The notes: generated by a model not told the origin, from the letters alone. Positions 35,505 to 59,827 are shown, numbered from the stretch's first letter. The stretch: DNA of 64,000 bases from a virus (IMGVR_UViG_3300032307_000369:181551-245550), one strand, 5' to 3'. Numbers and translations are program-made.

Positions 35505-37196
35505 ATGGCTCTTATGAAGAAAAAAATTTTTAGCGTTCCACTTAATCCAAAACTTTCTCCAGATCAATATCTAGAATTTTATAACTTTCTAGCGGAGTAT
35601 AAAGATTATATTCGAGATGTTTATTTCACTTCTCGAATTAAACCATTTATGCAAGATGCAATGGGAGACGTGTTTGTCATACAAGAAGATTATCAATATG
35701 CTATTGATGCGGCTTTGTATATTCAAAACACTTTGGGTATTCCTGTTAGTGCAACATTTAACAATATTAGTGTCCCACCAACACAGATTAACCTAGATAC
35801 CTTTATATCTAATTTCAAACCATTGTATGATAAGGGCATAAGAAATGCCACTATCCCACATACGCACTGGATGGCTACTGGTCAGATCAAGGCAGCATTT
35901 CCTGAACTGTATGTAAAAAATACAATTTTAAGAGAAGTGCATACCGCACAAGAAGTTGTTAATCTAGCCAAAGCAGGATTTGATTATGTTAATTTAGATA
36001 GAGATCTGATGAGAGATCGTGATGCTTTATTAAAGATTAAAAAGGCTAAAGAATATATTAAAGAAACAATGGGGAAAGATATTGCGATCAGTCTGCTATC
36101 TAATGAAGGTTGCTTAGGTGGCTGTTCCATGATGGTGGAACATTTTGAGTTCAATAACAATAGAATAGGCGCAAGCCCGCAATACTTTAATGATCCAATC
36201 AGTAGAGTTAGTTGTCCTAAATGGGACGTATTGGATCCAGCAGTGCATCTTAAAACAGCCAACTTTCCTCCTTGGAGAGCTGACTGGGTAGAATTTGTAG
36301 AGGAGTTAGGCATTGACAGTTTTAAAATGCACGGCAGAGAAGCAGTGTCAAGACTCTACGAGACAATGGAAATTATTAGAAGATTTGCTCGAGAAGAAGA
36401 AATTTTAATTGACGGGTTTGAAAAGTATTTAGAAGAAACAAATTTAGTAGATAAGCCAATTAACATATGGCGACAAAAAATTAAGAATTGCAAATTTGAA
36501 TGTTGGGAATGCCAATATTGTGATAAAATTTACGATAAAAAGGCAGCTGACATTAAGTATTCAGAACTTGTACAACACGTAGTTGAGTGTATAGCGGATA
36601 GTGGAATTCCAACAGTTAGTACAAATGTTCCAGGACTTACAAGTATTCGAGTTCAATCATTGTTAAATGCAATTGCATCAGGCGTTGATACGTATTTAGA
36701 AGTTGGATCAGGTGTTGGTGCAACAATGTCTGCGGTGTTAAAAAATAATCCTATACATGCTATTGCAGTTGATAACTGGCAGCAGAATATACAACCATTA
36801 ACTGATAACATAGCACAGCTACCTGAAAATACTGTAGAAAACTTTACTGAAAATATTAAAAAATATAGTGGCGCATCAAGAATTGATGTATATAACGGGG
36901 ATCTTTTTAGTATAGATACTAGTACATTTGAAAAACCAATCAAAATGTTTTTCTATGATGGCCCGCATGATTTAGCCAGCACTAAACGTGCAGTTCAACA
37001 TTATGCCAGTTGTTTAGATAACGAGGCAATTTTAATTTTTGATGATGCAAATTGGGAAGGCGTTGTTGAAGGCGCTAGACAAGGGATCAACGCTGTTGGA
37101 GGTCACGTGACTTATGAAAAATTAATTTTAAATAGTGTTGAAAATCCAAGAGAGTGGTGGAACGGCTTGTATATATTAGTAATGAGGAAAAGATGA
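35505..37196 (+). CDS. Fusion: U32-like TIM-barrel domain plus class I methyltransferase
   Basis: A 563-residue protein with two domains. Residues about 1-345 resemble the peptidase U32/UbiU-type family, a TIM barrel that in characterised members binds an Fe-S cluster: ATIPHTHWMATGQI, YVNLDRDLMRDR, NEGCLGGCSMM (C203, C207), RVSCPKWD (C237), DSFKMHGRE and a cluster C329, C333, C336, C339 (C-x3-C-x2-C-x2-C). Residues about 375-563 form a Methyltransf_24-like SAM-dependent methyltransferase: YLEVGSGVGATMSAVL (SAM loop), AIAVDNW, MFFYDGPHDLASTKRAV and ILIFDDANWEGV. U32 proteins act in tRNA or cofactor hydroxylation; the substrate here is unknown. It heads a cassette with a halogenase homologue and two oxygenases, and its stop overlaps the next start (ATGA). 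No Shine-Dalgarno is visible; a second ATG lies at 35514. Confidence 0.7.
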   Translation: MALMKKKIFSVPLNPKLSPDQYLEFYNFLAEYKDYIRDVYFTSRIKPFMQDAMGDVFVIQEDYQYAIDAALYIQNTLGIPVSATFNNISVPPTQINLDTFISNFKPLYDKGIRNATIPHTHWMATGQIKAAFPELYVKNTILREVHTAQEVVNLAKAGFDYVNLDRDLMRDRDALLKIKKAKEYIKETMGKDIAISLLSNEGCLGGCSMMVEHFEFNNNRIGASPQYFNDPISRVSCPKWDVLDPAVHLKTANFPPWRADWVEFVEELGIDSFKMHGREAVSRLYETMEIIRRFAREEEILIDGFEKYLEETNLVDKPINIWRQKIKNCKFECWECQYCDKIYDKKAADIKYSELVQHVVECIADSGIPTVSTNVPGLTSIRVQSLLNAIASGVDTYLEVGSGVGATMSAVLKNNPIHAIAVDNWQQNIQPLTDNIAQLPENTVENFTENIKKYSGASRIDVYNGDLFSIDTSTFEKPIKMFFYDGPHDLASTKRAVQHYASCLDNEAILIFDDANWEGVVEGARQGINAVGGHVTYEKLILNSVENPREWWNGLYILVMRKR

Positions 37197-38704
37197 TTAG
37201 TAAGGTAAAAAATATAGTAATTTTTGGCGGAGGTACAAGCGGTTGGCTTACTGCGGCCTACATGGTAAACAATTTAAAAATACCAACTAAGATTACATTA
37301 ATAGAAGATACTTCTCTTGGACCAATTGGTGTTGGAGAAGGTACTCAACCATTGACTGCACAATTTTTACATCAGTGCGGTATTCCACCAAAAATGTGGA
37401 TGAAACCAAGCCAAGCAAGTTTTAAATTTGGTGTTGAATTGGTTGGTTGGAATGACGAGCCATATTTTGTAGATAACGACACTATCAATAATGCAGTTAT
37501 ATCAGAAGACTTTTTTACTAGTGATTACTTTTTAAATAAGGACCCTAAAGAATTTAGAGATTGGCATCCTGCTTATCAATTGGCAAAAGAAAACATTTGT
37601 CCTAAAATTGAAGGAAGTATGGATGTAAATTTTGGTTCAGGAGAGGCTGGATATGGCGCAGTACATTTTAATGCTTACGAAATTATAAAAACAATAAAAG
37701 ATATCATACTTGATAAAATTACATATATTGATACTAAAATTGAAAATATTGAAAAAGACATATATGGAATTACTAAGCTAGTTGATGACAAGAATAACTC
37801 TTACACTGCTGATTTGTTTATAGATTGCAGTGGGTTTAAATCACTGTTACTTGAAAAAACATTAGGATCTCCATTCACTTCATACACAGATTATTTGCCG
37901 TGTGACAAGGCAGTAGTACTTCCAACACAATATACTGATCCTGAAAAAGAATGTTTTCCTTACACTCGTGCAACAACCATGACGTCAGGTTGGAGATTTA
38001 CGATTCCAATTTTTACAAGGGTTGGTAATGGTTACATTTATAGCAGTAAATTTATCAGTAAAGAAGATGCAGAAAAAGAGTTAAGAGAAAGCGTTGGCGA
38101 ATTTGATGCAACTGCAAGACACTTAGATATGAAATGTGGAACACATAAAGAAATTGCTGTTAAAAATGTCTGTGCAGTGGGATTAAGTGCAGGGTTTGTG
38201 GAACCATTGGAAGCAACTGGCATCACTTTTACTACTGCTGTGGTAAGATCAATTACTGACTTATTAAACATGAGTGGAAATGTTTGGAATCAACAAGTAA
38301 AAGACTACATTAACAGAGGATTTCATGAAATGACTACTGAAATTGTAGCATTTGTTTGGGCCCACTACCACTTTGCTACAAGACGAGACACAGATTTTTG
38401 GAAAAATATTGGTGAACAACGCTTAGAAAATTTGCCAGAAGATGTACAGTATGTATTAAGCAATTTTTACCCAATGCCAAGTAAGTATCTTTATTTTAGT
38501 CCTGGCTCAATGTTTAACGCTGTGCAATGGTTTAGTGTTATTCATGCTGGTAAGGGATATGCTAACGTAAAAAATACACTGTCAGAAAAACAAGAACTTT
38601 ACGGAAAATATTTTAAAGAAGTACATGAATCAAGAGTTGGCATGGCAAAGAATACTTTTCCAAATCAATATCAGTATCTAAAGGATTGGTATGCAAAAGT
38701 GTAA
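37193..38704 (+). CDS. Flavin-dependent (tryptophan-type) halogenase homologue
   Basis: A 503-residue member of the tryptophan halogenase family (PF04820), which uses FADH2, O2 and halide to chlorinate or brominate an aromatic substrate. Visible are the FAD-binding GGGTSGW (residues 12-18), GPIGVGEGTQP, the catalytic lysine in ASFKFGVELVGW (K78, like PrnA K79), the FAD segment GLSAGFVEPLEATGITF with the family's catalytic Glu (E340), and DCSGF. The signature WxWxIP reads WRFTIP (267-272), with Phe for the second Trp. No flavin reductase lies in this window, so a host reductase would be needed. The ATG at 37193 is chosen because GAGG precedes it and it overlaps the preceding TGA (ATGA); a GTG start further upstream lacks these signals. 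Substrate unknown. Confidence 0.88.
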   Translation: MISKVKNIVIFGGGTSGWLTAAYMVNNLKIPTKITLIEDTSLGPIGVGEGTQPLTAQFLHQCGIPPKMWMKPSQASFKFGVELVGWNDEPYFVDNDTINNAVISEDFFTSDYFLNKDPKEFRDWHPAYQLAKENICPKIEGSMDVNFGSGEAGYGAVHFNAYEIIKTIKDIILDKITYIDTKIENIEKDIYGITKLVDDKNNSYTADLFIDCSGFKSLLLEKTLGSPFTSYTDYLPCDKAVVLPTQYTDPEKECFPYTRATTMTSGWRFTIPIFTRVGNGYIYSSKFISKEDAEKELRESVGEFDATARHLDMKCGTHKEIAVKNVCAVGLSAGFVEPLEATGITFTTAVVRSITDLLNMSGNVWNQQVKDYINRGFHEMTTEIVAFVWAHYHFATRRDTDFWKNIGEQRLENLPEDVQYVLSNFYPMPSKYLYFSPGSMFNAVQWFSVIHAGKGYANVKNTLSEKQELYGKYFKEVHESRVGMAKNTFPNQYQYLKDWYAKV

Positions 38705-39269
38705 ACTTTTTAGAGCTGATCTGTTTTTAGAATCAAATGTTGGTACAGATGAGCAATACAATGATTTACTAAAACAAATTAGATTCGCTCAGAGTATGAA
38801 TAGTAATCCTGCTCCTCACAGTAATGAGAACTGTTGGAGAACTGAAACACAGTATCAAAATATTGGATGGTTACTGCAAGGTTTAAGAAAGTTGTTAGAT
38901 GAATTTATTCTTGAATATAAACATGAATTAGACTATAAGAATTTAGATTACAATAAAATTTCATATTTTTATTGGACAAACATCAATGCACCACATAGTA
39001 AAAATGCTAGACACGCACATGTCAAAAGTCATTTTTCAGCGGTGTACTACTTGCAATCAGAAAATACTGGAGCCCTTAGACTAATTAATCCAGCAAACGG
39101 ACTGTCTGAATGTAACCCAGGCGCTCCGTATATTTCAGACGTTGTTTATCCACCAAAGGATCGAGATTTAGTAATGTGGCCTGCCTGGGTTCCACATGAA
39201 GTTGATCCAAATTATTCAAATAAAGAAAGAATAAACTTAACATTTGATATTACAATAGGTCCAAAATGA
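38691..39269 (+). CDS. 2OG-Fe(II) oxygenase family protein
   Basis: A 192-residue double-stranded beta-helix dioxygenase of the putative 2OG-Fe(II) type (PF13759-like), which hydroxylates or otherwise oxidises a substrate using 2-oxoglutarate and iron. Key region: NARHAHVKSHFSAVYYLQ (H108, H110), then MWPAWVPHEVDP (H169) and KERINLTFDI (R180, likely 2-oxoglutarate binding). AAGGA lies 6 nt before the ATG, and the start overlaps the halogenase gene by 14 nt, so the two are translationally coupled. It may act on the halogenase product or on a partner substrate. The family call is good; the substrate is unknown. Confidence 0.75.
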   Translation: MQKCKLFRADLFLESNVGTDEQYNDLLKQIRFAQSMNSNPAPHSNENCWRTETQYQNIGWLLQGLRKLLDEFILEYKHELDYKNLDYNKISYFYWTNINAPHSKNARHAHVKSHFSAVYYLQSENTGALRLINPANGLSECNPGAPYISDVVYPPKDRDLVMWPAWVPHEVDPNYSNKERINLTFDITIGPK

Positions 39270-40003
39270 AAGATATAATTTTCTTCTCAACGGTTGAGGG
39301 AGTTTCAGAAGTTTGTCCAATTGTTCCCGCATTAAAATCATTACCAGCCTGGACGAATGTTGCTAGAGAAAAATACATTAAGGAAAAAAATGACAGTAAC
39401 GAAAGAGTTAGTCATCTTTATCAATGCCCAGGAATTTTTGATTTGTATAACTATGGATATATAGTTACAGCTTGGCACGATTTTGTAATTAAAACTGATC
39501 AAAATAAACAAGGGTTTGCTTGGACTATTCCACATTCAGAATTGGCAGATTTGATGAACGGTATAGATATTATTGGTACACATCAACAAAGAATAAGTGA
39601 ACTTATTCCATCTCGACCAACTTCGATCAAACAGATTATTAAACTTAATACACCTTGGCATGTGATTGCACCAAAAGGAATCAAATTTATTGTACTACCT
39701 ATCGCATATCCTGATTCATTTGAATTTGATAGTCATATTGGTATTTTGGATCCTTCTGTCAGTTCTGAAATTAATGTCCAATTAAACTGGAATGTTAAAG
39801 ATGGCGAAACATTAATCAAAGCAGGAACGCCTTTAGCACACCTAATACCAATTAGCGAAGATAAATTTAATCTAATTTGTAGAGATGCAACTGACAATGA
39901 CAAGCGTTGGTTGCGAAAAAGAAATTTCTTTAACAATTTCACTTTTAAACTCAAAAGAAATGTGATTAAAGAATTTTATTATAAACATTTTTATGGAAAA
40001 TAA
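39266..40003 (+). CDS. Unknown protein of the enzyme cassette (DUF6065-like pattern)
   Basis: A 245-residue protein: VEGVSEVCPIVPALKSLPAW, YQCPGIFDLYNYGYIVTAWH, then a central beta-rich part (NTPWHVIAPKGIKFIVLPIA) and a C-terminal basic helix (WLRKRNFFNNFTFKLKRNVI). The C.P..D....GY.I pattern and the PW.....KG...L...P motif resemble proteins I associate with DUF6065, found near halogenase and oxygenase genes in marine phages; I cannot confirm this here. A cupin-like or double-stranded beta-helix fold is possible. It overlaps the preceding gene by 4 nt (ATGA), tying it to the cassette. Confidence 0.5.
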   Translation: MKDIIFFSTVEGVSEVCPIVPALKSLPAWTNVAREKYIKEKNDSNERVSHLYQCPGIFDLYNYGYIVTAWHDFVIKTDQNKQGFAWTIPHSELADLMNGIDIIGTHQQRISELIPSRPTSIKQIIKLNTPWHVIAPKGIKFIVLPIAYPDSFEFDSHIGILDPSVSSEINVQLNWNVKDGETLIKAGTPLAHLIPISEDKFNLICRDATDNDKRWLRKRNFFNNFTFKLKRNVIKEFYYKHFYGK

Positions 40004-40005
40004 TT

Positions 40006-40404
40006 ATGCTACACGAAATCAATGACGGAGAATTCGCAACATATATTGTTGTTGAGAGGAAAGTTAAAGACGAATATACTGCAAGAAAAGTACAAAAAGA
40101 TAGACGTAAATTGCAAATATGGTTAGATGCATTATTAAGTGATCGCCATGTTATTATCTTCTATAAAGACGGTATTGAAGAAAAAATGTTTGTGGGTAGT
40201 AAAAAAGAAATGTTTGGTGAACTACCAACAACTCCTATGAATATTGACATTGTTAATAACAAAGTAAAATTACAAAGCTATTACTGCACTTGTTTTGAAG
40301 TTCCCAATAGAACTCCTGTTGCTGTACATGTTGATTCTGTGACTAAATTTATTGTTAAGCAAGAAGGATTATCAGAACTCAGTTCAAGGATTAGATTTAT
40401 ATGA
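40006..40404 (+). CDS. Unknown small protein of the enzyme cassette
   Basis: A 132-residue protein with a basic helix near residues 20-36 (KDEYTARKVQKDRRKLQIWL), beta-strands HVIIFYKDGIEEKMFVGSKK and SYYCTCFEVPNRTPVAVHVD. No family recognised. It is placed 2 nt after the preceding gene and overlaps the next by 4 nt, inside the oxygenase/halogenase cassette. An accessory role is inferred from this spacing only. Confidence 0.5.
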   Translation: MLHEINDGEFATYIVVERKVKDEYTARKVQKDRRKLQIWLDALLSDRHVIIFYKDGIEEKMFVGSKKEMFGELPTTPMNIDIVNNKVKLQSYYCTCFEVPNRTPVAVHVDSVTKFIVKQEGLSELSSRIRFI

Positions 40405-40985
40405 TTGAAAACGATTTTATTGGGGTATACGACCAAGCGTTGACCAAGGAAGAGTGTGATGAAATCATACGCTACTTTGAAGAGATGAAAAAATTAAACT
40501 TAGTATTTGACCGCCAAAGTTTAAAAGACGGACATGCCCACGAAAAACAAGATGAAACTTGTTTTCCTATGGAACTAGATGAGTTCTATGTTGACAAAAC
40601 TCATCCAACTCTTAAATTATTTTTTGATAAATTTTGGCCATGCTACGAAGAATATGTAAAAAAATACAGTGTGTTAGCAACATCGGTCAAACACGGATCA
40701 CTTGGTATTAGAGTTCAAAAAACCCCAATTGGTGGCGGGTACCATCCTTGGCATTACGAAAATGATGGAAGATTGTCATCATCACGTGTCATAGCATTTA
40801 TGCTATACCTTAACACTGTTACTATTGGTGGTGAGACAGAATTTTTATATCAGCACAAACGAGTCAGTCCAACGCAAGGTAGAGTAGTAATTTGGCCCGC
40901 AGGATTTACGCATACTCATAGAGGAAACCCTCCATTAAGCGGTGAAAAATATATTGTCACTGGTTGGTTAGAGTGGATGGCTTAA
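40401..40985 (+). CDS. Prolyl-4-hydroxylase-type 2OG-Fe(II) oxygenase
   Basis: A 194-residue P4H-like dioxygenase: RVQKTPIGGGYHPWHYENDG gives the first iron ligands as H118 and E120 (HxE rather than HxD); GGETEFLYQHKRVSPTQGRV follows; WPAGFTHTHRGNPPLSG supplies the distal His (H171 or H173); and KYIVTGW the basic residue for 2-oxoglutarate (K183). Such enzymes are common in marine T4-like phages and are thought to hydroxylate proline or related residues in a protein, perhaps the phage fibres. It is the last gene of the cassette and converges on the minus-strand protease gene, overlapping it by 4 nt. Confidence 0.82.
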   Translation: MIENDFIGVYDQALTKEECDEIIRYFEEMKKLNLVFDRQSLKDGHAHEKQDETCFPMELDEFYVDKTHPTLKLFFDKFWPCYEEYVKKYSVLATSVKHGSLGIRVQKTPIGGGYHPWHYENDGRLSSSRVIAFMLYLNTVTIGGETEFLYQHKRVSPTQGRVVIWPAGFTHTHRGNPPLSGEKYIVTGWLEWMA

Positions 40986-42856
40986 TTGACAATCATTATC
41001 ATGCCACGCATTGTAGTATGGTATTGACAATTATAGTATAATTCATCAGGAGCATCCATAGGCACAACAAATGTGATAGTGCCGTTATCTGTTCCGTTAT
41101 TACCTACACCATAATATGCATCAACAGATCCTAATGTTAGCGTAGTTTTGATCCAAAATGGATGTCCCACAGCATTAATGTTGAACACATATCGCTGACC
41201 TCTAGTTAAGGTAAACATTGGATTAATACCTGATACACCTCCACTAAAGACATAATTTCCTGATCCGTTGTTTGTAACATTAAATGCAACTGGCGCAGGA
41301 TTTGTGTAGCCCACTTCTGTGGTTACTTCATACACAACGCTTCTATTAAATGGCTGACGTAAAAATCTATTAGGAGCAGATTGCAAACTTTGTACGTCTG
41401 TGTATCCTCCGCCAGTATCACTTAATCTACCAGTTCTGGCAATGGTCTGTACCCAAGTTCTAACTTTTGCAGGAGTCCAATTTTTTCTACTTTGTAACAT
41501 ACATGCAACAACGCCTGCAACTTGTGGACCTGCCATACTAGTGCCGCTAGATTTGACAGATTTAAAGTTACTATCTGTTGGGTAATCAACTGACCCTGAA
41601 TCAAATAAGGAACCAACAGCTGCCGCACTGATAATATTTTCTCCAGGAGCAAATACGTCTACTCTTGGGCCACAGCAACTGAAAAAACTTTTACCTTCTG
41701 GATTAGCTGATTTTACAGAACCAACACTTATTACGCCTGAAGTTGAACTAGGAGTGGAACCTCTATGATAATATATTGTTCCGTTAACTGTACTGGTATA
41801 GCTGTTATTATAATCAGTTCCTGTAGGTATATCTATTTTGTGAGCATCGTTTCCAGCAGAGCCTACTAGTATGACCCCTGCATCTATACAATCTGCAATA
41901 TCAGCGTCTACAGAAGCAACTCTAACAGGGTGAATATAAACAAAGTTTGGGCTTACTCCAGTTCTATTGTATAATGTTTGAATCATACCATAAGCACTGA
42001 CCATACTGGATCCAGTCCATGGAGTACCACGATATGATCCGCCATTTATATTAGTATACGAATTAAAATAACCCCAACTCATATTGACCACTGTAGGTCT
42101 TCTTGCACCATCAAGAGCATTTACTGGCTTACTTAGATGCCAAGCTCGTATCATGTTGAAGCTAGCACTAACACCAAATGCATCAGTATCAAATATTTTG
42201 ATAGCATATATATTGGCTTCTTTAGCCCAACCATATAATCTTCCTGCAACAGTTCCAGCACAATGTGTTCCATGACCTTCTTGGTCAGTATAATGACTTG
42301 AACCTTGTGTATAAGTTCCAGTTAATCCGCTAATTCCAGGCCAATTTACCTGTTGAAATCTAGAGGCTGTGCCTTCTAAATTAAGCCATTCTGGATGAGT
42401 AGGATCAATACCACTGTCTTGGATTACTACATCAACACCATTTCCACTTAAAGAATATGCATGTTGAAAATTCAATGTTGTTGTAGTGTAAGGATTTGTT
42501 GCGGCGACACAAGCAGGAAACGCCCAATTATAATGTGAGGAGTCCACAGTTATTGATTTGTCGTAAACCCTAGAGTCTTCTAATATATGAGGTTTTAAAA
42601 AGATATTATTTTCTTGCTTTGTTCCATATCTAACATCAATAATTCTTGGATCGCCTTTTAATGTTTCTGCTTCTAACCTAGTTAATACAAAATCAACATT
42701 ACGCAAGCTGTCTATTTTTTCATTATATAATTCTACAGGTCTATTGGGCATGAATTCGTTATGATTTTTGCCACTGACCATGTCCTCAATAAATGCGTCA
42801 ACGTCTACACCTTTATGTAGAGTGACAACTGCTTTGTTTGTATCTTCTGTACTCAT
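40982..42856 (-). CDS. Subtilisin-like serine protease with C-terminal cupredoxin-like domain
   Basis: A 624-residue S8 family protease. Residues about 1-125 look like a propeptide or virion-anchor region. The catalytic triad is complete: D147 in VVIQDSGID, H195 in EGHGTHCAGT and S440 in SSGTSMAGPQVAG, with oxyanion N336 in GSAGNDA. There is no signal peptide. Residues about 520-624 form a small beta domain with a full type-1 copper ligand set: H565 in VGHPFWIK, then C610, H613 and M616 in YYNCQYHTTMRGM. The gene heads toward the cassette and shares its strand and 2-nt spacing with fibre genes, so a virion-associated protease that could clip surface or fibre proteins is likely. Copper binding is inferred from ligand spacing. 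Confidence 0.85.
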   Translation of the reverse strand: MSTEDTNKAVVTLHKGVDVDAFIEDMVSGKNHNEFMPNRPVELYNEKIDSLRNVDFVLTRLEAETLKGDPRIIDVRYGTKQENNIFLKPHILEDSRVYDKSITVDSSHYNWAFPACVAATNPYTTTTLNFQHAYSLSGNGVDVVIQDSGIDPTHPEWLNLEGTASRFQQVNWPGISGLTGTYTQGSSHYTDQEGHGTHCAGTVAGRLYGWAKEANIYAIKIFDTDAFGVSASFNMIRAWHLSKPVNALDGARRPTVVNMSWGYFNSYTNINGGSYRGTPWTGSSMVSAYGMIQTLYNRTGVSPNFVYIHPVRVASVDADIADCIDAGVILVGSAGNDAHKIDIPTGTDYNNSYTSTVNGTIYYHRGSTPSSTSGVISVGSVKSANPEGKSFFSCCGPRVDVFAPGENIISAAAVGSLFDSGSVDYPTDSNFKSVKSSGTSMAGPQVAGVVACMLQSRKNWTPAKVRTWVQTIARTGRLSDTGGGYTDVQSLQSAPNRFLRQPFNRSVVYEVTTEVGYTNPAPVAFNVTNNGSGNYVFSGGVSGINPMFTLTRGQRYVFNINAVGHPFWIKTTLTLGSVDAYYGVGNNGTDNGTITFVVPMDAPDELYYNCQYHTTMRGMIMIVN

Positions 42857-42858
42857 TT

Positions 42859-43956
42859 TTAAATTCCTGTTGTATCCGCGTTGTAGAAAAAGTATCCAGT
42901 ACCATCACTTGTTGTGGCAATTCCTGGACCACTAAATGAAAATGTTATGAAGGCAGCTCCTACACCATTTCCGTATAATACTCTAACTGGATAGTATGTA
43001 CCAGCTGTCAATTGTATATTCCCACTTGTGACTGTACCAGTATTAAATGTGGCAAACACATTGGCATTGCCAGTAGTATAACCACTAACGGCATTGTTAC
43101 CAATCCAAAAATAACTGCCATCATCAGATGCTAGTCTAAAATTATAAATTCCAGTTGTTGGTGCTAGGAAGTAACCTACCCATTGGTAGCTGATGTTATC
43201 ACCAATTGACGGATAATTAACTGCGTTAGTTGCACCTTCTGCCGTAGGGGCGGTCATGTAATTCACGTTTTCGTTATGATAACCCAGTTGATATGATTGA
43301 TATAATCCTGCAATTGGATATATGGTTCCTCGTATTTGCATCCAATCAATTCTAAAATCGTCAACGGCTGTGGCTCCAAAATCAAATCTAATACCAGTAA
43401 TGGTATTATTGGTCCAGTCAGTGCCTCCAGCTGTTAAATTTCTATTATCAATGATCATGTATTGATAGTCAACCCCGTTCCATGTTGGTTGAGTGTAAAC
43501 GTTTCTAAATGAATTTGACTCACCATGACCACCAGTTGTGTAGTAGAATGTACCGTCCCATCCAGTGCCTCCAGTTCTAAGTAATGAAACTTCAACATAT
43601 GGATATCTACTGCCATCAAAACTCAAACCTGTTCTTCTAAGCTGGGGATCAACTGTTGTGGCATCTAAAGTTGAATATGTTGAACCAGATGCAGTCAAAG
43701 TAGCATTAGTGGTAGTAAAGGATTGATTAGTTGCGCCAAAATCAAAAACAATACCAGGACCAGCAGTTGTAACTCCTACTGGCACAATTGCATTGCTTTT
43801 TCCATAGCCATCAGCAGCCAATCGTATGGCTCCTGCACCAACTCCATATAGAGTTCTAACAGATGCTTGTCCTAAAGATATTTGTGTAGTGCCAGTAAGT
43901 CCTAGCTCTACGTTAATATCACTAAAGTCTATTTGTCCGTTTGCTGGTAATGGCAT
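42859..43956 (-). CDS. Fibre-associated protein with PA14/GLEYA-like lectin domain
   Basis: A 365-residue protein. The N-terminus (NGQIDFSDINVELGLTGTTQ, then ISLGQASVRTLYG) is a known start of phage tail-fibre-associated proteins. Residues about 215-350 resemble a PA14/GLEYA adhesin domain: WVGYFLAPTTGIYNFRLASD, then the DD pair of SDDGSYFWIG that in this fold binds calcium and sugar, and AGTYYPVRVLYGNG. It probably binds host-surface carbohydrate. It lies 2 nt from both neighbours in the minus-strand fibre operon (protease and S74 fibre). The lectin call is by motif, not alignment. Confidence 0.68.
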   Translation of the reverse strand: MPLPANGQIDFSDINVELGLTGTTQISLGQASVRTLYGVGAGAIRLAADGYGKSNAIVPVGVTTAGPGIVFDFGATNQSFTTTNATLTASGSTYSTLDATTVDPQLRRTGLSFDGSRYPYVEVSLLRTGGTGWDGTFYYTTGGHGESNSFRNVYTQPTWNGVDYQYMIIDNRNLTAGGTDWTNNTITGIRFDFGATAVDDFRIDWMQIRGTIYPIAGLYQSYQLGYHNENVNYMTAPTAEGATNAVNYPSIGDNISYQWVGYFLAPTTGIYNFRLASDDGSYFWIGNNAVSGYTTGNANVFATFNTGTVTSGNIQLTAGTYYPVRVLYGNGVGAAFITFSFSGPGIATTSDGTGYFFYNADTTGI

Positions 43957-43957
43957 G

Positions 43958-46900
43958 TTAACCTAACTTCTTTTTAATTTCGTCAACTTGATCTGCTAGC
44001 TCATTAATTGCTTGAATAATCAAACCAGCCATTTTTTCATACTTGACCGCTTTATGTCCGTCTGGACGTGTGGCAACTACCTCTGGTAGTACTACTTCAA
44101 CATCTTGTGCAATCACACCAGTGTCATGTTTGCGCACAAAATAATCATCTTCGCCTCCACGACGTTCAACTTCTTCGTCAGTCCAATCAAACATAACACC
44201 AGTAATTTGTCTTAGTTTTCCCAATGCATTTTCAATTGGTTGAATATTTTCTTTTAGATTTCTGTCTGAAGAAAAGTATGCAGTGATTTCGTTTGTAGCA
44301 CGGATTTCACCAGTAGTAGAACTAGCCGCTGTGCCTACTCCAAGTGAACTATATTGTGGATAGGCAGAACCACTTAACGATGCAGTTGCACTTTCTGATA
44401 AACGCAATCTTACTCCATTGCAGAAATTAAATGTACCATCGTCGCCATTACGTACACACAACAATATCCATGTATGAGGTACTTCTAATGCCGATGTATA
44501 ACTAGCAACTCTAAAGTTTGCTGCCGTACTAGTAAAAGTACTTCCTGTTGGAAGAATATAATACAATGCTTCCCATGCGGCTAGTGGAACTCCTGCCGCA
44601 GTGGCTGTTTTATTTGCCGCTCCACCAACACCAGTTACAGTGCCACTGGTAGGACAGGTAATATCAAAATAACCAGCAGTGCTGAATGTTGCGCCAAAAC
44701 CGTTGGAAATAACAATAAATCTAGTAGCCCATAATACGCTTCCAGTAGAATTGACAGTGATTGCTCCTCCACCACTAACATTAAAGCCTGCTTTGATGCT
44801 TGCTGAATATGTGGCTTGCACAATGCCATTGTATTGAGTTGCAGTTGTAGCAGTTCCCGATAACGTTCCAACAGTCAGCGTGTTTGTATTTGGATTATAT
44901 GTAAATTCTGCCGCACTGTCTTGTAATAGACCATAGTTGCCAGTAGTTGATACAGTTGTATTAGCAAATGGAACTTTGAAAGCACTGTTAGTATTTGATG
45001 CTGTTAATGCAACGTTTGTTGCGTTGGTTGCAGTTGTGGCTGTAGAAGAAGTGACTCCAGTTAAGTTAGCACCATTTCCATAAAAAGCGTTGGCATATAT
45101 GTTACCAGTCACGCCCATACCACCAGTAACACGCAATGTGCCTGTGCTAGTACTTGTTGCCGCACTATTTTGCGTAAACGAAATTGTACCAGACGCAGTT
45201 AATGCGTTACCAAAATTTACTGCACCGCCTACACCTAACCCACCAGTGACTGTTAATGCACCAGTATTTGTACTAGAACTTGCAGTATTATTTGTAAAAT
45301 TAGTAATTCCTGAAACGTTACCACCAGCAAAAGTTTGCGCAATTACACCAGTTAAGTTTGCACCACTACCGTAAAACCCAGTAGCGTACACATCACCAGC
45401 AACTCCTAAGCCGCCGTCTACAATTAATGCTCCAGTACTTGTTGAACTGCTTGCATCAGTGTTTGTTATTTCAATAGCGCCAGCATGTGTTAGTTTACCA
45501 GTACTTGCCCATTGTGCTCTTATGTTTCCTTGTCCATCAGCAATAATAATATTATTGTCGGATGTGGCAATACTTGTGCCGTCATACATACCTAGAATCA
45601 AGTTGTTACTACCAGTAGTAATTGCACTACCTGAGCCACTTCCAACTGTGGTATTCTGAATACCAGTCACATTTAATAAACTATTGTAACCTATACTTGT
45701 GTTGTGATCACCAGTCGCACCAACTGATTGTGAAAATGTACCAACCGCAACGTTAGTTGACCCTTCATTAGCTTTAAGAACATCAGTACCAATAGCAACG
45801 TTTGAACCACCACCTGTTTTAGCACCCATGGCATTATAGCCAATAGACACGTTATTGTTAGTAGTAGTAAGCTGACCTTGGTTACTATAACCAATTGCAA
45901 TATTATTTTGTCCACCAATGTTTGAACCTAATGGAGCATTTACTCCTGATCCACCACCAATGGCCACGTTGGTATCATAGTTTTGACCGCCAGCACCAAA
46001 AGCAATACCGCCAGATTTAAATGTTCCGCCAACGTTCAAGTTACCTTGAACACCCATACCACCAACAACACGTATGGCACCAGTGGTTGTACTAGTACTA
46101 GGAGTCACGTTGTTAACAACCAATGTTCCAGTAATTGTACCACCATTATAACTACCGCTAGCACTGGTCAATACTGGACTGCCAGCCACATAAATTGTGC
46201 CGCCAAAATATCCATCGCCACCTACACCAATACCACCGCCAACAATTAAGGCACCAGTTGTCGTACTAGTACTGGCTGTTACCGCTTGAATTTGAATAGC
46301 GTTTGGAACTGCACCACCCGCAAATTGACTACTAGCCGCATCAACGTATGCTTTGTTAACAGCATCTGTACTTTCAGTTGGACTGGCTACGTTAACAATT
46401 TTACTGCCACTAACGTTAACCTCGCCAGGAGCATCAATAATAAAATCACTACCGCTGGTAAATTTAAGTGCGCCGGTGGTGTCATCAAATAGTGTTTTAA
46501 CTTTTAACTTACCACTAACTATTAGATCATTGCCTACAGTGATGTCATTATAAACGGCTAGGTTATTACCAACTGTTGCATTAGACACTGTAGAAAACAA
46601 TCCAGTAACTTGTGCATTTGTAGCAGTTAATTTGTTAGTTGCTGGGTCCCATGTTAAATCAGATGACGTGTCATCAACTACTGTTCCACTAGCAGTATAA
46701 TAGGCTAATCTATTAACAACACCAGAACTTACTGTTCCACTAGCACTTAAATCTAAACTACCAATTTCTGTGTCAACATAAGTTTTAACTGCTTTTTCGG
46801 TTGGTACTGCCGCATCACTATTACCTGCTAGTGTTCCGTCAATACTAAATTCACTAACTGTCGCACCTTGTGCAAATCCTAAACTGGTAATTGTAATACT

Positions 46901-47311
46901 GGCATTTAAACTGCCAGTAACTGTTAGGTTTTGTGCTGTAAGTGTTCCTGTTGCATCATTCCAAGTTAATGCGGCACTAGTTCCTGATGTAATACCTTGA
47001 GCATTATAGTAAGCAACACGTCCAGGACTTCCTGTACCTAATGGCAAGTTAGTCAGTTGACTACCATCACCAACAAAACTTTGCGCGGTGATTGTTCCGC
47101 TAGCATTTACGGTTCCTGTGTTTATTCCAGGAGTAGTGACCGACCCTGCAGATAAAGGACCAGTAATAGTAGCACTGGTAGAAGTAATTGATGAAAAAGT
47201 AGGACTGTTATTTGGTCTTAAATCCCAAGTGGTGCCATTCCATTCCCAGGTTGTTGTACCAGAAGTATATGTTTGATTTAGTGTTGGACTTAGTGGAAAA
47301 TTAACTGGCAT
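43958..47311 (-). CDS. Tail fibre with S74 intramolecular chaperone (1117 aa)
   Basis: The N-terminus (FPLSPTLNQTYTSGTTTWEW, then NGTTWDLRP) is typical of phage fibre bases. The body has several copies of a TS(T)TGAL.V.GG.GV.G....G repeat, about 25 residues each after spacing, and a YadA/Hia head-like segment of NxxIG repeats near residues 450-565 (NIAIGYSN, NVSIGYNA, NVAIGTD, NTSIGYN). The C-terminal 104 residues are an S74 domain: SSDRNLKENIQPIENALGKL, GVIAQDVEVVLPEVV, then a helix ending KKKLG. These chaperones trimerise the fibre and are cut off at the serine pair. AGGAGAAT precedes the ATG. A host-recognition fibre; this is the second S74 fibre in the window. Confidence 0.88.
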   Translation of the reverse strand: MPVNFPLSPTLNQTYTSGTTTWEWNGTTWDLRPNNSPTFSSITSTSATITGPLSAGSVTTPGINTGTVNASGTITAQSFVGDGSQLTNLPLGTGSPGRVAYYNAQGITSGTSAALTWNDATGTLTAQNLTVTGSLNASITITSLGFAQGATVSEFSIDGTLAGNSDAAVPTEKAVKTYVDTEIGSLDLSASGTVSSGVVNRLAYYTASGTVVDDTSSDLTWDPATNKLTATNAQVTGLFSTVSNATVGNNLAVYNDITVGNDLIVSGKLKVKTLFDDTTGALKFTSGSDFIIDAPGEVNVSGSKIVNVASPTESTDAVNKAYVDAASSQFAGGAVPNAIQIQAVTASTSTTTGALIVGGGIGVGGDGYFGGTIYVAGSPVLTSASGSYNGGTITGTLVVNNVTPSTSTTTGAIRVVGGMGVQGNLNVGGTFKSGGIAFGAGGQNYDTNVAIGGGSGVNAPLGSNIGGQNNIAIGYSNQGQLTTTNNNVSIGYNAMGAKTGGGSNVAIGTDVLKANEGSTNVAVGTFSQSVGATGDHNTSIGYNSLLNVTGIQNTTVGSGSGSAITTGSNNLILGMYDGTSIATSDNNIIIADGQGNIRAQWASTGKLTHAGAIEITNTDASSSTSTGALIVDGGLGVAGDVYATGFYGSGANLTGVIAQTFAGGNVSGITNFTNNTASSSTNTGALTVTGGLGVGGAVNFGNALTASGTISFTQNSAATSTSTGTLRVTGGMGVTGNIYANAFYGNGANLTGVTSSTATTATNATNVALTASNTNSAFKVPFANTTVSTTGNYGLLQDSAAEFTYNPNTNTLTVGTLSGTATTATQYNGIVQATYSASIKAGFNVSGGGAITVNSTGSVLWATRFIVISNGFGATFSTAGYFDITCPTSGTVTGVGGAANKTATAAGVPLAAWEALYYILPTGSTFTSTAANFRVASYTSALEVPHTWILLCVRNGDDGTFNFCNGVRLRLSESATASLSGSAYPQYSSLGVGTAASSTTGEIRATNEITAYFSSDRNLKENIQPIENALGKLRQITGVMFDWTDEEVERRGGEDDYFVRKHDTGVIAQDVEVVLPEVVATRPDGHKAVKYEKMAGLIIQAINELADQVDEIKKKLG

Positions 47312-47312
47312 C

Positions 47313-47582
47313 TTATTCTCCTAAATCCGCAACATTTACCACATGCACTCTATTTTCTAAACAGCAGTTATATCCGCCGTTAATTGAATGTTGTGACTCG
47401 TCCCATAACATTTGAAAGAAATCTTCTCTTTCAAATATTCTAGTCAATTGATCCATTTTAATTGCTGTATTGGTTACAGTATTAAACAAGGTTAAATCGT
47501 ATAAGGAATTAATAGTGCCATCAGCAGACTGTCGTGTGCCGTTCTCAGTTATTGTATATTTCCATGTTCCTAATATTTGCAT
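47313..47582 (-). CDS. Small unknown protein between two fibre genes
   Basis: An 89-residue protein (MQILGTWKYTITENGTRQSA, then YDLTLFNTVTNTAIKMDQLT, CCLENRVHVVNVADLGE). The ATG follows an AGGAT ribosome site, and 1-nt gaps separate it from both fibres, so it is co-transcribed with them. No family recognised. A fibre assembly or connector role is possible only from location. Confidence 0.5.
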   Translation of the reverse strand: MQILGTWKYTITENGTRQSADGTINSLYDLTLFNTVTNTAIKMDQLTRIFEREDFFQMLWDESQHSINGGYNCCLENRVHVVNVADLGE

Positions 47583-47583
47583 T

Positions 47584-50343
47584 TTAATATCCTACCACGA
47601 AAGAGTTATTACCAGCACCACCAATTCCCATTATTGAATAATGTTTTGTTGTTTGTGGTAAAATTGTAAATGTTTGGCTAGTTGTTGGAGTCATTGTTGC
47701 ATTAGTTCCGCCCTGTAAAGTTAGCGTGGTATTTGAACCTGACACACTTGCTGTTACATACAGTTTGGTTTCTACACCAGGGATAACATTCGTTAATGTT
47801 ATAGTTGCTGATGTACTAGATAGATTAAAATGGAACGCCCTAGCTGTTCTACAATCAATAGTAGTAGTACCACTAGTGTCAATTTCGTTAGCAGGCTCAA
47901 TATAAATGTTTCCAACCATTGCTGGGTGCAACGTACAAATATACTGATAACGTCCTACAGTGTCTCTAGGAATTTGCCAATATAAAGTACCACTTATTTT
48001 TGCTTGAGCTGAAGCACCTGTTGATACAGTGCCATCTCTTGTAATATGCACTAGACCTAAATTGTAATTTGAACCTGCTTGATCAAGAATTGCAAATGGA
48101 TGTGTCCCTTGCATTGTGTTCAAATTAAATGCAATAGTCTGACCAGCTTTAAAATATAAAGTTGGATTATCAGTTGTACCTGTAAAATTAGTAAATGTGT
48201 AGGATAATAAACTATTGTTTACTACATCTAATGATGTACTCGCTGACAATACAATTCTATCCATGGTGAATGTTGGATAATTTTTCCAACCAGTACCGTC
48301 ATAGTATAGTACTTGACCCAAACTTAAATTATTACCTACACCGCCAATTGTTACGTCGCTTAGTTCGTCTAAAGTGGTTGCACCCGTTGTGCCAGTCAAC
48401 GTTATAGTATCAGTAGTTGCATTTGTAGTAATAGTAATACCGCCTGCACCAACTAAGGTCAATGTATCAGTGGTTCCATCAGCTACTACACTAGTCTGTC
48501 CAGCAACTGCGATTGTTTCAAAACTATTACTTGCGGCACCACCTGCACCAGCATTGTCAGTTCCTGGTACCCATTGTGCTAGCGCACCGTTGTATTTTAA
48601 TACTTGTCCATCAGTTGGCGTCACTGATATTTGTACATCAGACAAATCATCTAATGTTGTAGGTACTGTAGGTATTGTTGGACCAGTAAAGGTAATAGTG
48701 TCAGTGGTTGCATTTGTGGTGATAGTGATACCACCTGCACCAACAAATGTTAAATTATCTGCTGGTATGTCAGCAGTGACTGTGGGTTGTGCTTGTACAA
48801 TAATGTTAGCAAACGTATTTTGTTGTGTAATAGTTTGCGTATTATTAATGGTTATAGTATCAGTGGCAGCATCTGTTATTAGAGAAATGTTGGTTCCTGC
48901 AACTAATGTCAATGTATCTGCACTAGAATCTGCAATTACGTTAGGCTGACCACTTACTGCAATAGTACTAAATGAAGTAGCAACTCCTGAGCCAGACAAA
49001 CTTGCACTAATACTGATTGTATTTGCATCAACTCTAGTTAGACTAACGTTAGCACCTTCTTCAAACAAAACGTTTTGGGTTGTATTGTCACTACCAGCTA
49101 GCCTTACGTTAACACCGCCAGCGGCTGGTTGTGTATTAAAAGTATATGTTGTTTGAGCAGGCACGGTCGCCGCAATAGTGATAGTGTCAGCAGTTGAATT
49201 TGAAGTTAATGATATGTTGCTACCAGCAACTAATGTCAAAGTATCTGTTGGACTATCTGCAACAACGCTTGCTTGTCCTGCAATTGATATTGTTCTAAAA
49301 CTATCGCTAGCTGAACTTCCGCTTAAATCAGGAGCATTAACCCATTGTGTCCCGTCATATTTTAAAACTTCACCATTTGTTGGTCCAGACACTGCGACAT
49401 CTGACAAACTAATTAATCTTGGATTCACAAACTGTATATTAGAACCCATATTGCGATGGTTGTAGCACCAGTAGTATAATGTTGTTGGAAAATTATTTCC
49501 AACAGTTAATTCCACAGTTCTAGTAGTAGCTCCATTAAAAGCAGTGCCATTGTACACTTGACTAGTTACGACTACACCGTCTAATTTGTAGACCACATTG
49601 GTCACAAAGGCTGTACCACCATCACGTTCGCCGTTTAATTGATCTGCGCTAAAATTTAAATTGTGTGGGTTTGGAGTTGTGCCATTAGCATTGGGAAAAT
49701 ATACGTTTGTGTCATCGCTTTGATCAAACACATAGGTATAGCCTCGTTGTAAAATCAGTGGTGACGGCTTGTACTCGCCATTAATTCTATACTTGTTGCC
49801 AATATCAGGAGCTTGAGGAGGTACTATGGTAACAACAAAGGTTACTTTTGGTGTTAAGGTAGTATCAACGGCACTACTGCCTTGTAAATCAGCACTGTTA
49901 GTCCAAAAAGCACCATTCCACTTTAATACTTGTCCAACTGACGGACTGCCTACCACGCTAACATCAGTAAGCTGTGTTAGTGCTGTTGCTCCTCCACCGC
50001 CACCTGCGCCACCCCCTGCTTGCCCAAACTGTGGCATTGCAGGTTGTACCCATTGATTGCTGTCACCGTCATCTACATAGACATACAAAACGCCAGTATT
50101 AGTATTAAACCACAAACTGCCGCTACGACTGTTTGATGGTGGAACTTGTGCTACTGCTACCCCAAGACCGCTTTTAGCGTTAGTCAAATCTGCACGTAAA
50201 AGTGGAATTCCGCCCTTAATTAAGCCGTCATAAAGCACCAATGTTTTTTGATCTGCATCGTAGTACAGATCCCCATTGTTGAATCTACTGTCTAAAAAAT
50301 CGCTGTCGTTTGGGACTAGTCTAATTGAACGTAGCGGCGTCAT
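47584..50343 (-). CDS. Fibre protein with two cupredoxin-like copper-site domains (919 aa)
   Basis: The N-terminus (MTPLRSIRLVPNDSDFLDSR, then FNNGDLYYDADQKTLVLYDG) is a fibre-base motif. Residues about 165-308 and 695-818 each form a small beta domain with a complete type-1 copper ligand set: H227 with C293, H296, M299 (YYWCYNHRNMG), and H748 (GTHPFAIL) with C803, H806, M809 (YQYICTLHPAMVG). Between them are four repeats of about 46 residues (F.TI.V.GQ..V.AD...DTLTLV.G..I...T...DTIT) and four copies of L..L.DV......GQVLK.(D/N)G..W. An adhesin/fibre that may also hold copper. AGAGGAT and a late-type box at 50369 precede the start. Copper binding is inferred. Confidence 0.75.
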   Translation of the reverse strand: MTPLRSIRLVPNDSDFLDSRFNNGDLYYDADQKTLVLYDGLIKGGIPLLRADLTNAKSGLGVAVAQVPPSNSRSGSLWFNTNTGVLYVYVDDGDSNQWVQPAMPQFGQAGGGAGGGGGATALTQLTDVSVVGSPSVGQVLKWNGAFWTNSADLQGSSAVDTTLTPKVTFVVTIVPPQAPDIGNKYRINGEYKPSPLILQRGYTYVFDQSDDTNVYFPNANGTTPNPHNLNFSADQLNGERDGGTAFVTNVVYKLDGVVVTSQVYNGTAFNGATTRTVELTVGNNFPTTLYYWCYNHRNMGSNIQFVNPRLISLSDVAVSGPTNGEVLKYDGTQWVNAPDLSGSSASDSFRTISIAGQASVVADSPTDTLTLVAGSNISLTSNSTADTITIAATVPAQTTYTFNTQPAAGGVNVRLAGSDNTTQNVLFEEGANVSLTRVDANTISISASLSGSGVATSFSTIAVSGQPNVIADSSADTLTLVAGTNISLITDAATDTITINNTQTITQQNTFANIIVQAQPTVTADIPADNLTFVGAGGITITTNATTDTITFTGPTIPTVPTTLDDLSDVQISVTPTDGQVLKYNGALAQWVPGTDNAGAGGAASNSFETIAVAGQTSVVADGTTDTLTLVGAGGITITTNATTDTITLTGTTGATTLDELSDVTIGGVGNNLSLGQVLYYDGTGWKNYPTFTMDRIVLSASTSLDVVNNSLLSYTFTNFTGTTDNPTLYFKAGQTIAFNLNTMQGTHPFAILDQAGSNYNLGLVHITRDGTVSTGASAQAKISGTLYWQIPRDTVGRYQYICTLHPAMVGNIYIEPANEIDTSGTTTIDCRTARAFHFNLSSTSATITLTNVIPGVETKLYVTASVSGSNTTLTLQGGTNATMTPTTSQTFTILPQTTKHYSIMGIGGAGNNSFVVGY

Positions 50344-50401: not shown

Positions 50402-50836
50402 TCAAATGATGTTGATTAAGTCAAATACTGTTTCTAGTTTGGTTCTAATAATCTTATTAGAAAAGCTACTTTTTAGCCCTTGATGCAATGGTTTGGGCGA
50501 ATGATCCATCTCTGACCAGCACCAACCTTTGTGCTCGCCGTTGAGCTTGGGGATAAATTCGTCTTCTATAATCATTAGATATGTGTGATAAAAGAACTTG
50601 TCGTCCTTACTCACAAATAGCTCTAAGGGAATTGTCTTTTTTACATCAGGCATTACCCCAATTTCTTCAACAATTTCTCTCTTCAAAGCTTCAAAATTAT
50701 TGGCGTCTGTATCTTCTTGTTTCCCGCCCACAATGCCCCAAGTACCGCTAGTCCTGCCGCCATTGCGAAGCAAGAATAAAAATCTCTTGGTTGATTTGGC
50801 ATAGAAAAGTGCTCCACTACAGACTATATCGTTCAT
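50402..50836 (-). CDS. NUDIX hydrolase
   Basis: A 144-residue NUDIX enzyme, a family that hydrolyses nucleoside diphosphates linked to another group (oxidised nucleotides, NADH, ADP-ribose, capped RNA). The NUDIX box is clear around residues 37-61: GGKQED, then REIVEEIGV, with one residue more than usual between the Gly pair and Arg53. The ATG at 50836 is chosen because it overlaps the gp15 TGA (ATGA) on the same strand; a TTG further upstream lacks support. It lies between neck and fibre genes, an odd place for a metabolic enzyme. Substrate unknown. Confidence 0.82.
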   Translation of the reverse strand: MNDIVCSGALFYAKSTKRFLFLLRNGGRTSGTWGIVGGKQEDTDANNFEALKREIVEEIGVMPDVKKTIPLELFVSKDDKFFYHTYLMIIEDEFIPKLNGEHKGWCWSEMDHSPKPLHQGLKSSFSNKIIRTKLETVFDLINII

Positions 50837-52284
50837 AAAATAATTTGCCAACTTCCGTTATCAAAGGTTCCTTCCATACTCTTGGTCCATGTTTCTCCGT
50901 CCCATTTGTATTGAATACCTGTATAAGCATTAGTTATGAACGTTGGGCCATTTTGCGCACCACTATTGAAAATAACGTGCCAAGTTGTGCCATCCCATTG
51001 AATTACATCATTAGCATTGGCTCTTAAAAATGTAGTTCCATTTGCATTTCTAAAATATGGAACACTGTCTGCAAAATCTACAATACTTGCAGGATTAATT
51101 TCTTCTAAGATTAAAAATCTCATGTCTACTGTTTTAGATGCTGGTAGTGGACGAGTAGGATCTACGATCGCATCCACTGTGCCTCTTGCGGCTGTTACTG
51201 CTCCAGCACCTGCAATCAATGTATTAGTTGGAAGACTTTGATTATCAAAGGTTAGATGCATTATTGTTTCGTCAGCAGAATCCAAACTCAATGTAGCAGT
51301 GGCAATTTTTCCATCTGCTTTGGTCAATTGTAACTTACTGTAGCCAGCAACAAATTTTCCTGGATAGCGTTCTAAAATTTCTCTCCAATTAATATTTTGT
51401 CCTAGTTTAGAAATTTGTGTATCAAATGTGTTAGTAACACCTTCAACGTTACCAAGCAGTTTGGCAATATATTGTGGACTACCACTAGAAGAATTATTAG
51501 TAATCATTACTCCATAGCCGTACAGCGTGATCACTTGTCTACTGATCATACTACCTGCTAATAGGTCGTTGGTAATATTTCCTTCTTCATCAAATACTCT
51601 AGCAATGATGCTTGTAATAACGCCTTGACGTTTGACTTTTGCAGGCGGGCTCAACCAAATAGGAGCCATAAATTTCAAACTGGCAACTTCTAAATCTTGG
51701 TCGCCTGTTGGAATAGTTTGGTTAGTATAATTAATTTCCATCAACTCTAGTGTGGTCAAACTAGTCCAATCTAGATAGTTGCTAGTAGTTTGTAATTCAA
51801 TTGCAGGATTAAACAACACTACTATCTGTTCTAAAATTTGTAATTTTTGATCAATGTTAGTTGTCCATATGTCTGCTTTTAAACTCAACTGATATGGATT
51901 AGGCATTAAACGTTCTACGGTTACGTCTGCACCACGCTTTGCCGCATAGTCTTCAATGAATTGTCCATAAGTGGGACTGTTAATATTTTCATCAGTATAT
52001 CCGTACTCACGTTCAATAACGTGTACTTTGCTCACATACGTAGGGTCCTGCATTCTTGTACGACTTAATTCTAAATTTTCAATGTAAGCACTAATAAAAG
52101 GTGCCTGCATTAAAAAGTTTTCACTGTTTTGTCTAAGAATTGATGCAGTTTGTTTGTTTAAGGTACCAAAACGTACAGGAACTTGTACTAGATTACCTTC
52201 ACCGTCTTGATAATGAAATCCACTCAATGCTCTTATAAATTGAGTAAGATATCTTCTTATTTGTCCATCGTAAAAGAAATCCAT
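50833..52284 (-). CDS. 15: Tail sheath stabiliser / tail completion protein (gp15)
   Basis: gp15 caps the contracted-tail end and joins tail to neck. The N-terminal half shows the gp15 pattern: FFYDGQIRRYLTQFIRALSG, LVQVPVRFGTLNKQ, FISAYIENLELSR, then PYQLSLKADIWTTNIDQKLQ with ILEQIVVLFNPAIELQTT and a TLELMEINYTNQ...EVASLKF strand pair. T4 gp15 has 272 residues; this one has 483, with an extra C-terminal beta region that ends in (Q/K)WDG.TW motifs like those of fibre proteins. It starts with the base shared with the gp14 stop (TAATG). Order 14-15 on one strand supports the call. Confidence 0.8.
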   Translation of the reverse strand: MDFFYDGQIRRYLTQFIRALSGFHYQDGEGNLVQVPVRFGTLNKQTASILRQNSENFLMQAPFISAYIENLELSRTRMQDPTYVSKVHVIEREYGYTDENINSPTYGQFIEDYAAKRGADVTVERLMPNPYQLSLKADIWTTNIDQKLQILEQIVVLFNPAIELQTTSNYLDWTSLTTLELMEINYTNQTIPTGDQDLEVASLKFMAPIWLSPPAKVKRQGVITSIIARVFDEEGNITNDLLAGSMISRQVITLYGYGVMITNNSSSGSPQYIAKLLGNVEGVTNTFDTQISKLGQNINWREILERYPGKFVAGYSKLQLTKADGKIATATLSLDSADETIMHLTFDNQSLPTNTLIAGAGAVTAARGTVDAIVDPTRPLPASKTVDMRFLILEEINPASIVDFADSVPYFRNANGTTFLRANANDVIQWDGTTWHVIFNSGAQNGPTFITNAYTGIQYKWDGETWTKSMEGTFDNGSWQIIL

Positions 52285-59760: not shown

Positions 59761-59781
59761 TACAAATTAGGGAGTGAATCG

Positions 59782-59809
59782 AAAAGCCTGGATTTTTCCA
59801 GGCTTTTTT
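59782..59809 (+). terminator. Rho-independent terminator after the tube gene
   Basis: AAAAGCCTGG, loop ATTTTT, CCAGGCTTTTTT: a strong hairpin with a T run 21 nt after the gp19 stop. Confidence 0.92.
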
Positions 59810-59814
59810 ATTAT

Positions 59815-59822
59815 ACTAAATA
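59815..59822 (+). promoter_or_regulatory. Late promoter-like box (ACTAAATA) touching the next start
   Basis: ACTAAATA lies just after the terminator and ends 5 nt before the ATG at 59828. No ribosome site lies between, and the terminator directly upstream argues for a fresh start here. Confidence 0.5.
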
Positions 59823-59827
59823 TTGTT

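Follow-up and report, generated by a model that had tools for sequence, protein, structure and literature searches.

Predicted type-1 copper (cupredoxin) domains in two tail proteins of a large myovirus

We analyzed the final 64 kb (64,000 nucleotides) of a 245,550-base virus record (IMGVR_UViG_3300032307_000369:181551-245550, indexed here as G000:C1:181551-245550), hereafter called the window. The virus is a large myovirus, and the record may be a fragment of its genome. Two tail proteins encoded in the window, a subtilisin-like protease and a 919-residue fibre, carry three regions that very probably are genuine cupredoxin domains with the type-1 copper ligand set His...Cys-x2-His-x2-Met. This degree of confidence, which draws on sequence comparison and structural models, covers the fold and the copper-type site but not the mechanism. 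In aquatic phages, members of the same family recur on baseplate and fibre proteins, often in a terminal position, and also terminally on tail subtilisins. The relevant features, with coordinates counted along the window, are as follows.

40982..42856, minus strand: 624-residue subtilisin-like (S8) protease with a predicted C-terminal cupredoxin domain, in the tail gene cluster
40985..41314, minus strand: domain 1, predicted cupredoxin domain at the extreme C-terminus of the protease (residues 515-624), from AlphaFold, Foldseek and the family profile
41162..41164, minus strand: His565, first-His ligand of domain 1, invariant in alignment A5 (71 sequences)
41009..41029, minus strand: ligand loop of domain 1, Cys610-x2-His613-x2-Met616 (CQYHTTM), all three residues invariant in A5
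47584..50343, minus strand: 919-residue tail fibre or baseplate-connector-like protein with two predicted cupredoxin domains
49414..49866, minus strand: domain 2, predicted cupredoxin domain, fibre residues 160-310, from AlphaFold (mean confidence given below) and Foldseek
49663..49665, minus strand: His227, ligand of domain 2, invariant in alignment A6
49447..49467, minus strand: ligand loop of domain 2, Cys293-x2-His296-x2-Met299 (CYNHRNM)
47884..48276, minus strand: domain 3, putative cupredoxin domain, fibre residues 690-820, from sequence comparison and the common family
48100..48102, minus strand: His748, ligand of domain 3, invariant in alignment A4
47917..47937, minus strand: ligand loop of domain 3, Cys803-x2-His806-x2-Met809 (CTLHPAM), all three residues invariant in A4

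Ligand motifs, family relationship and predicted fold

The initial annotation had proposed three domains, each with a complete ligand set, and this observation is confirmed. All twelve residues (H565/C610/H613/M616, H227/C293/H296/M299 and H748/C803/H806/M809) lie where it had placed them, and a single loop spacing is common to the three domains despite their divergence (31% and 26% identity of the two fibre domains to domain 1). The three C-x2-H-x2-M motifs are the only ones in the real open reading frames of the window. Residue shuffling of the protease yields a mean of 0.0045 such motifs compared with one observed, while shuffling of the fibre yields a mean of 0.0003 compared with two, a number reached in 0 of 20,000 shuffles. 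The distance from the first His to the Cys is unequal (45, 66 and 55 residues in domains 1, 2 and 3, respectively) because the two fibre domains carry insertions.

The three domains are mutually 26-31% identical, and iterated profile searches seeded by any one of them recover both others (with domain 1 as the seed, those of the fibre appear at 5e-31 and 8e-29); at the level of sequence similarity, their homology within one family is shown. In an alignment of 28 members (A2), which were picked from intact members and are about 30% identical, the only invariant columns are G41, F46, H53, Y96, C98, H101 and M104, i.e., the four ligands and three other residues. Among 71 closer relatives of domain 1 (A5), H61, P62, Y104, C106, H109 and M112 are invariant. 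In the loop of domain 2 (A6) the Cys and the His are invariant, and Gln stands in place of Met in three rows.

The A2 profile matches 88 chains of the PDB at E < 1, and the best 60 of the 88 are all blue-copper or CuA proteins, among them copper nitrite reductase (CuNiR; 1.5e-7), plastocyanin (1.9e-5), pseudoazurin (2.2e-4) and amicyanin (6.1e-4). The family profile thus has the similarity to PDB chains by which members of the cupredoxin superfamily are recognized, and the ligand set of that superfamily, His...Cys-x(n)-His-x(n)-Met (or Gln), is present in all three domains. The assignment of domain 3 to the cupredoxin family rests on sequence: a single-sequence phmmer search with this domain matches CuNiR 9cck at E 0.0053 and amicyanins at E 0.39-1.2, in alignments centred on the ligand loop.

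The second line of evidence is the predicted fold. AlphaFold models domain 1 as a beta-sandwich of 8 strands (predicted local distance difference test score, pLDDT, 93.3; predicted template modelling score, pTM, 0.81), and domain 2 as a beta-sandwich as well (pLDDT 94.1, pTM 0.89). All 50 matches listed by Foldseek for domain 1 against the PDB are cupredoxins, copper oxidases, nitrite reductases or CuA domains, the best being AcoP (1.5e-5; template modelling score, TM-score, about 0.5). For domain 2 the best match is rusticyanin (2cak), followed by CuNiR and AcoP; most of the listed matches are copper proteins, and a few are to an adhesin. In the model of domain 1, H565 comes just ahead of one strand and the Cys-His-Met loop lies between the last two, a predicted order also found in cupredoxins. 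AlphaFold and Foldseek together thus bear out the cupredoxin fold of domains 1 and 2 that the initial annotation had left to fold prediction, with ligand placement read from the strand order. As judged from these models, the match to solved cupredoxins is clear but distant. Compared with BFVD, the model of domain 1 matches cyanophage tail proteins (TM-score 0.7-0.84), as well as giant-virus "beta-sandwich" proteins and a Fadolivirus "blue type 1 copper protein". A search for a solved structure of the P-SCSP2 relative found none, and the phage matches in the solved-structure search for S-SSM5 gp9 were only T4-type gp9/gp10 N-terminal ones.

The domains had also been described as amicyanin-like. 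This holds for the length of the Cys-x2-His-x2-Met loop, which is that of amicyanin (1aac and relatives), and not for membership in the amicyanins: CuNiR, plastocyanin and pseudoazurin rank higher by sequence, AcoP and rusticyanin are closer by fold, and 25 of the 28 A2 members differ from amicyanin in having His-Pro at the first ligand. The cupredoxin domains of CuNiRs and multicopper oxidases (6hbe, 9cck, 2dv6) rank first among the profile matches and high among the fold matches; in 9cck, the C-terminal one reads YICTLHPWM, nearly the same letters as YICTLHPAM in domain 3. These domains are likewise tethered modules, but they are attached to copper enzymes, whereas the phage domains are attached to tail fibres or to a subtilisin. 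AcoP and rusticyanin of Acidithiobacillus, which head the Foldseek matches for domains 1 and 2 (TM-score about 0.4-0.5), have longer ligand loops and function in iron-oxidation electron chains. Plastocyanins are set apart by their Cys-x2-His-x4-Met loop, as opposed to x2 in the phage domains. The PF25489 At5g54830-like domain, which matches 8 of the 28 A2 members (best 3.4e-4), is known from eukaryotic proteins, unlike the phage domains. One Planctomycetota copy (L331:5143-6552) passes the PF25489 cut-off at 1.4e-12 and thereby connects the family with a domain whose name comes from a plant protein.

Joint conservation and loss of the four ligands

The third line of evidence concerns selection on the metal site, for which the initial annotation had argued; random loss of ligands among relatives that keep the fold would speak against it. 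The ligand columns were masked in the profile, all loci were searched, and the domains that had recruited each locus were set aside. Matches of the primary collection scans, which used closer sub-alignments, were excluded from this test because the search patterns of these scans include either the Cys or the complete motif. Among the resulting 51 non-redundant, unselected domains, 38 have four ligands, none has three, one has two, five have one and seven have none (one of the ligandless matches, L066, is probably spurious). Independent loss would leave about 19 domains with four ligands, 21 with three, 9 with two and 2 with one or none. The observed all-or-none count is 50 of 51, which 0 of 10,000 column shuffles reached (best 33). 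Random loss is thus not seen, and the four ligands are retained or lost together in a family that has diverged widely.

The ligand Cys is the sole Cys in 160 of 173 intact domains, and it is missing from all 15 ligand-lost domains (15/15). A lone Cys argues against a disulfide, and a disulfide role for this residue was ruled out for the 160 domains with no second Cys. In a few family members Gln replaces Met, and a few have one extra residue between His and Met; both are known variations of type-1 sites.

Several points weigh against our interpretation and are best considered together. The TM-scores to solved cupredoxins are about 0.4-0.56, with root-mean-square deviations of 4-7 A. Pfam Copper-bind (PF00127) stays below threshold, scoring 14.6 vs. 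21.2 bits in the fibre (E 0.045 for domain 3) and giving no match in the protease; it matches A2 weakly (10/28 members, best E 0.0012). It should be noted that the Copper-bind cut-off is the database threshold of one subfamily and no defining biological feature. The statistics of the masked-ligand test ignore relatedness, and related sequences inflate the result. A tree yields 4 well-supported independent pairs, too few for significance, in which loss of the first His accompanies that of the Cys in 3.5 of 4 and loss of the second His in 3.8 of 4, but loss of Met/Gln in only 1.5 of 4. Moreover, the fold persists without ligands in several copies, including gp10-like ones and one in this genome, and the sandwich must therefore have a metal-free use. 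The latter, a fourth copy of the domain in this virus, lies outside the window at G000:C1:165199-165480 (minus strand), in a 4,748-residue open frame of the same virus. Finally, the position of the protease and the fibre on the virion surface is suggested by analogy with their relatives.

Possible roles of the metal site

Cupredoxins are textbook electron carriers, and type-1 ligand sets prefer copper; for the latter reason we infer from the ligand residues that the site is filled by copper, and the virus particles may carry this metal. Because the cytosol holds almost no free copper, loading would probably take place outside it, in the host envelope or after lysis. The most likely mechanism, to which we give about an even chance, is a copper-locked tip domain. 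The cluster formed by copper with the Cys, two His and Met would pin the loop at one end of the sandwich; the pinned loop would fix the contact surface and thereby lock a tip domain that binds a receptor or a neighbouring protein. This locking step, comparable to the way in which iron is held in His-x-His sites of the T4 long-fibre tip, is conjectural, which counts against it. The frequent C-terminal place of the domain and the survival of ligandless copies fit a structural-adhesive role.

In T4 gp37 and alterophage R22Y fibres, iron is bound in His-x-His sites, and a role in attachment has been proposed for it (PMC11705849). The likeness is the presence of metal in phage tail fibres; there it is octahedral iron on paired His, here a predicted type-1 copper site in a sandwich. 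Thus, the cupredoxin fold, the amicyanin loop length and iron in tail fibres are already known, while a cupredoxin on a phage tail has apparently not been named. No paper naming cupredoxins on phage tails turned up in a literature search, an absence that is weak evidence given the poor coverage of subscription papers in that search.

The main rival to a copper-locked tip is a redox role, since a type-1 site exceeds the needs of a structural tie. Here, Cu(I)/Cu(II) cycling at the host surface would sense the redox or copper state of a live cell, or pass electrons to a surface or periplasmic partner at adsorption. Fast electron transfer is what type-1 sites are built for, the family retains the full His2CysMet set instead of a simpler structural site, the axial Met is exchanged for Gln in a few relatives, as is known from phytocyanins, and the cellular relatives sit in CHRD or Lipoprotein_15 proteins. 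No partner is known, however, a search of the protease and the fibre showed no further redox domain, virions have no electron source and ligandless copies are still in use; on balance, we regard this role as possible but clearly less probable than locking. A more modest reading treats the domain as a surface beta-sandwich used in the manner of Ig-like domains, with a site merely inherited from cellular cupredoxins and zinc-filled or empty in nature. Ig-like surface sandwiches are indeed frequent on phage tails, and the fold outlives joint ligand loss in gp10-like and other copies. A vestige should, however, decay residue by residue, whereas among the 51 unselected domains a half-decayed site is seen only once and a site with three ligands never, and the lone Cys is retained in proteins with few other Cys, which makes an inherited site rather improbable.

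It has been proposed that phages engage siderophore receptors through the iron in their tail fibres (PMC11705849), and a copper analogue of this "Trojan horse", in which the virion binds copper and uses or supplies a host copper-uptake route, can be envisaged. The family is common in aquatic phages, but no receptor is known. Dissolved free copper is extremely low and picocyanobacteria are copper-sensitive, so that copper baiting is doubtful and in our opinion unlikely. It is most improbable that the CxxHxxM loops arose by chance or convergence, as random or zinc-like motifs within unrelated fibre sequence rich in beta structure: fibres are indeed repetitive and of this composition, and the Pfam scores are sub-threshold, but profile, fold and conservation agree, and the motif count exceeds that of shuffled sequences.

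A broader proposal is that type-1 copper centres are present on the baseplates and fibres of many aquatic tailed phages, that infection requires the metal and that adsorption is gated by its availability or redox state. We put this forward tentatively, as something that may be so but more probably is not. If true, copper would be a virion cofactor, and phages would take part in the chemistry of dissolved copper. The occurrence of cupredoxins as a common module that conserves its ligands, on the baseplates, fibres and tail proteases of phages, would give virus particles a copper cofactor and would extend to this metal the debate on metals in phage tails, which so far has been about iron. The idea is open to test now in cultured cyanophages.

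Carrier proteins, distribution and genomic setting

The protease belongs to Peptidase S8, with PF00082 above threshold (E 3.1e-32, residues 138-474) and the Asp/His/Ser catalytic-type motifs DSGID at 147, HGTHCAG at 195 and GTSMAGP at 438. It is covered over its full length by phrog_9158, and its C-terminus matches phrog_677 (baseplate wedge tail fiber protein connector) at 3.5e-24. The fibre matches phrog_677 at E 2.5e-62 and also phrog_9729 (tail fiber). The C-terminal domain of the phrog_677/gp9 proteins of T4-like cyanophages belongs to the same family and has the same four ligands as the window domains. Relatives are fused to T4_gp9_10_N (PF07880), the mark of T4 gp9/gp10-type baseplate wedge proteins, whereas this domain was not detected in the protease or the fibre, which resemble such proteins by the phrog_677 profile.

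The module is not unique to the window phage. In the phage collection it is found almost only in marine cyanophages, most commonly at the C-terminal end of gp9, the "baseplate wedge tail fiber connector", a protein that matches T4 gp9/gp10 at its N-terminus; the module is present on gp9/10-type baseplate proteins of most T4-like cyanophages and thus common there. It also occurs in the T7-like P-GSP1 and P-SCSP2, in S-TIM5, and in subtilisin-like proteins of S-H9-1 and S-CAM4. About 340 cyanophage records bear the domain (272 + 48 + 19 in one single-sequence search), compared with 459 that have a gp8-type baseplate gene, and hundreds of IMG/VR contigs encode it. The last domain ends within 5 residues of the terminus in 114 of 260 domain-bearing frames, many frames being cut by contig ends. 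In cyanophages the carriers bear no label other than "baseplate wedge tail fiber connector" or hypothetical, and most of these proteins have no informative annotation. In the S-SM1 virion 41 proteins were detected (Sullivan et al. 2010, PMC3037559); the part of that source available to us does not state whether gp9 is among them.

Fusion of T4_gp9_10_N to the cupredoxin domain is seen in relatives L103, L106, L111 and L322. The last of these (L322:4669-6300) lies on a contig binned as a Rickettsiales metagenome-assembled genome, which is probably viral because of this fusion. Cellular relatives are mainly from Flavobacteriia, with the domain at the C-terminus of CHRD or Lipoprotein_15 proteins; the Flavobacteriia proteins L278-L319 end in the same cupredoxin family, which apparently has no Pfam name of its own.

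The neighbours of the protease and the fibre in the window are tail genes, including a sheath stabiliser (T4 gp15 type, PF16724), the sheath (PF17482), the tail tube and a head-tail adaptor; an S74-chaperone fibre and a PA14/GLEYA protein are also nearby. The window phage is not clearly a T4-like cyanophage. Its identification as a cyanophage was considered and is unsupported: psbA was searched for and not found, and the second tube-like protein resembles tube proteins of PA5oct-like Pseudomonas, rhizobial and Vibrio large phages. A plastocyanin gene was likewise sought in the virus record, which has no PF00127 match at E 1e-3. A NUDIX hydrolase gene (50402-50851) lies within the tail gene cluster, and a run of likely metabolic or modification genes (35505-40985) adjoins it. 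Further features are listed below.

42859-43956: PA14/GLEYA (sugar-binding type) protein, 365 residues, between the protease and the S74 fibre
55449-59120: long tail sheath protein, 1,223 residues, phrog_10581 match over the full length
59134-61333: two tandem tail-tube-like proteins, 208 + 519 residues
within 35505-40985: tryptophan halogenase (PF04820, 3.4e-90)
38691-39269 and 40401-40985: two 2-oxoglutarate-Fe(II) oxygenases
35505-37196: methyltransferase-domain protein

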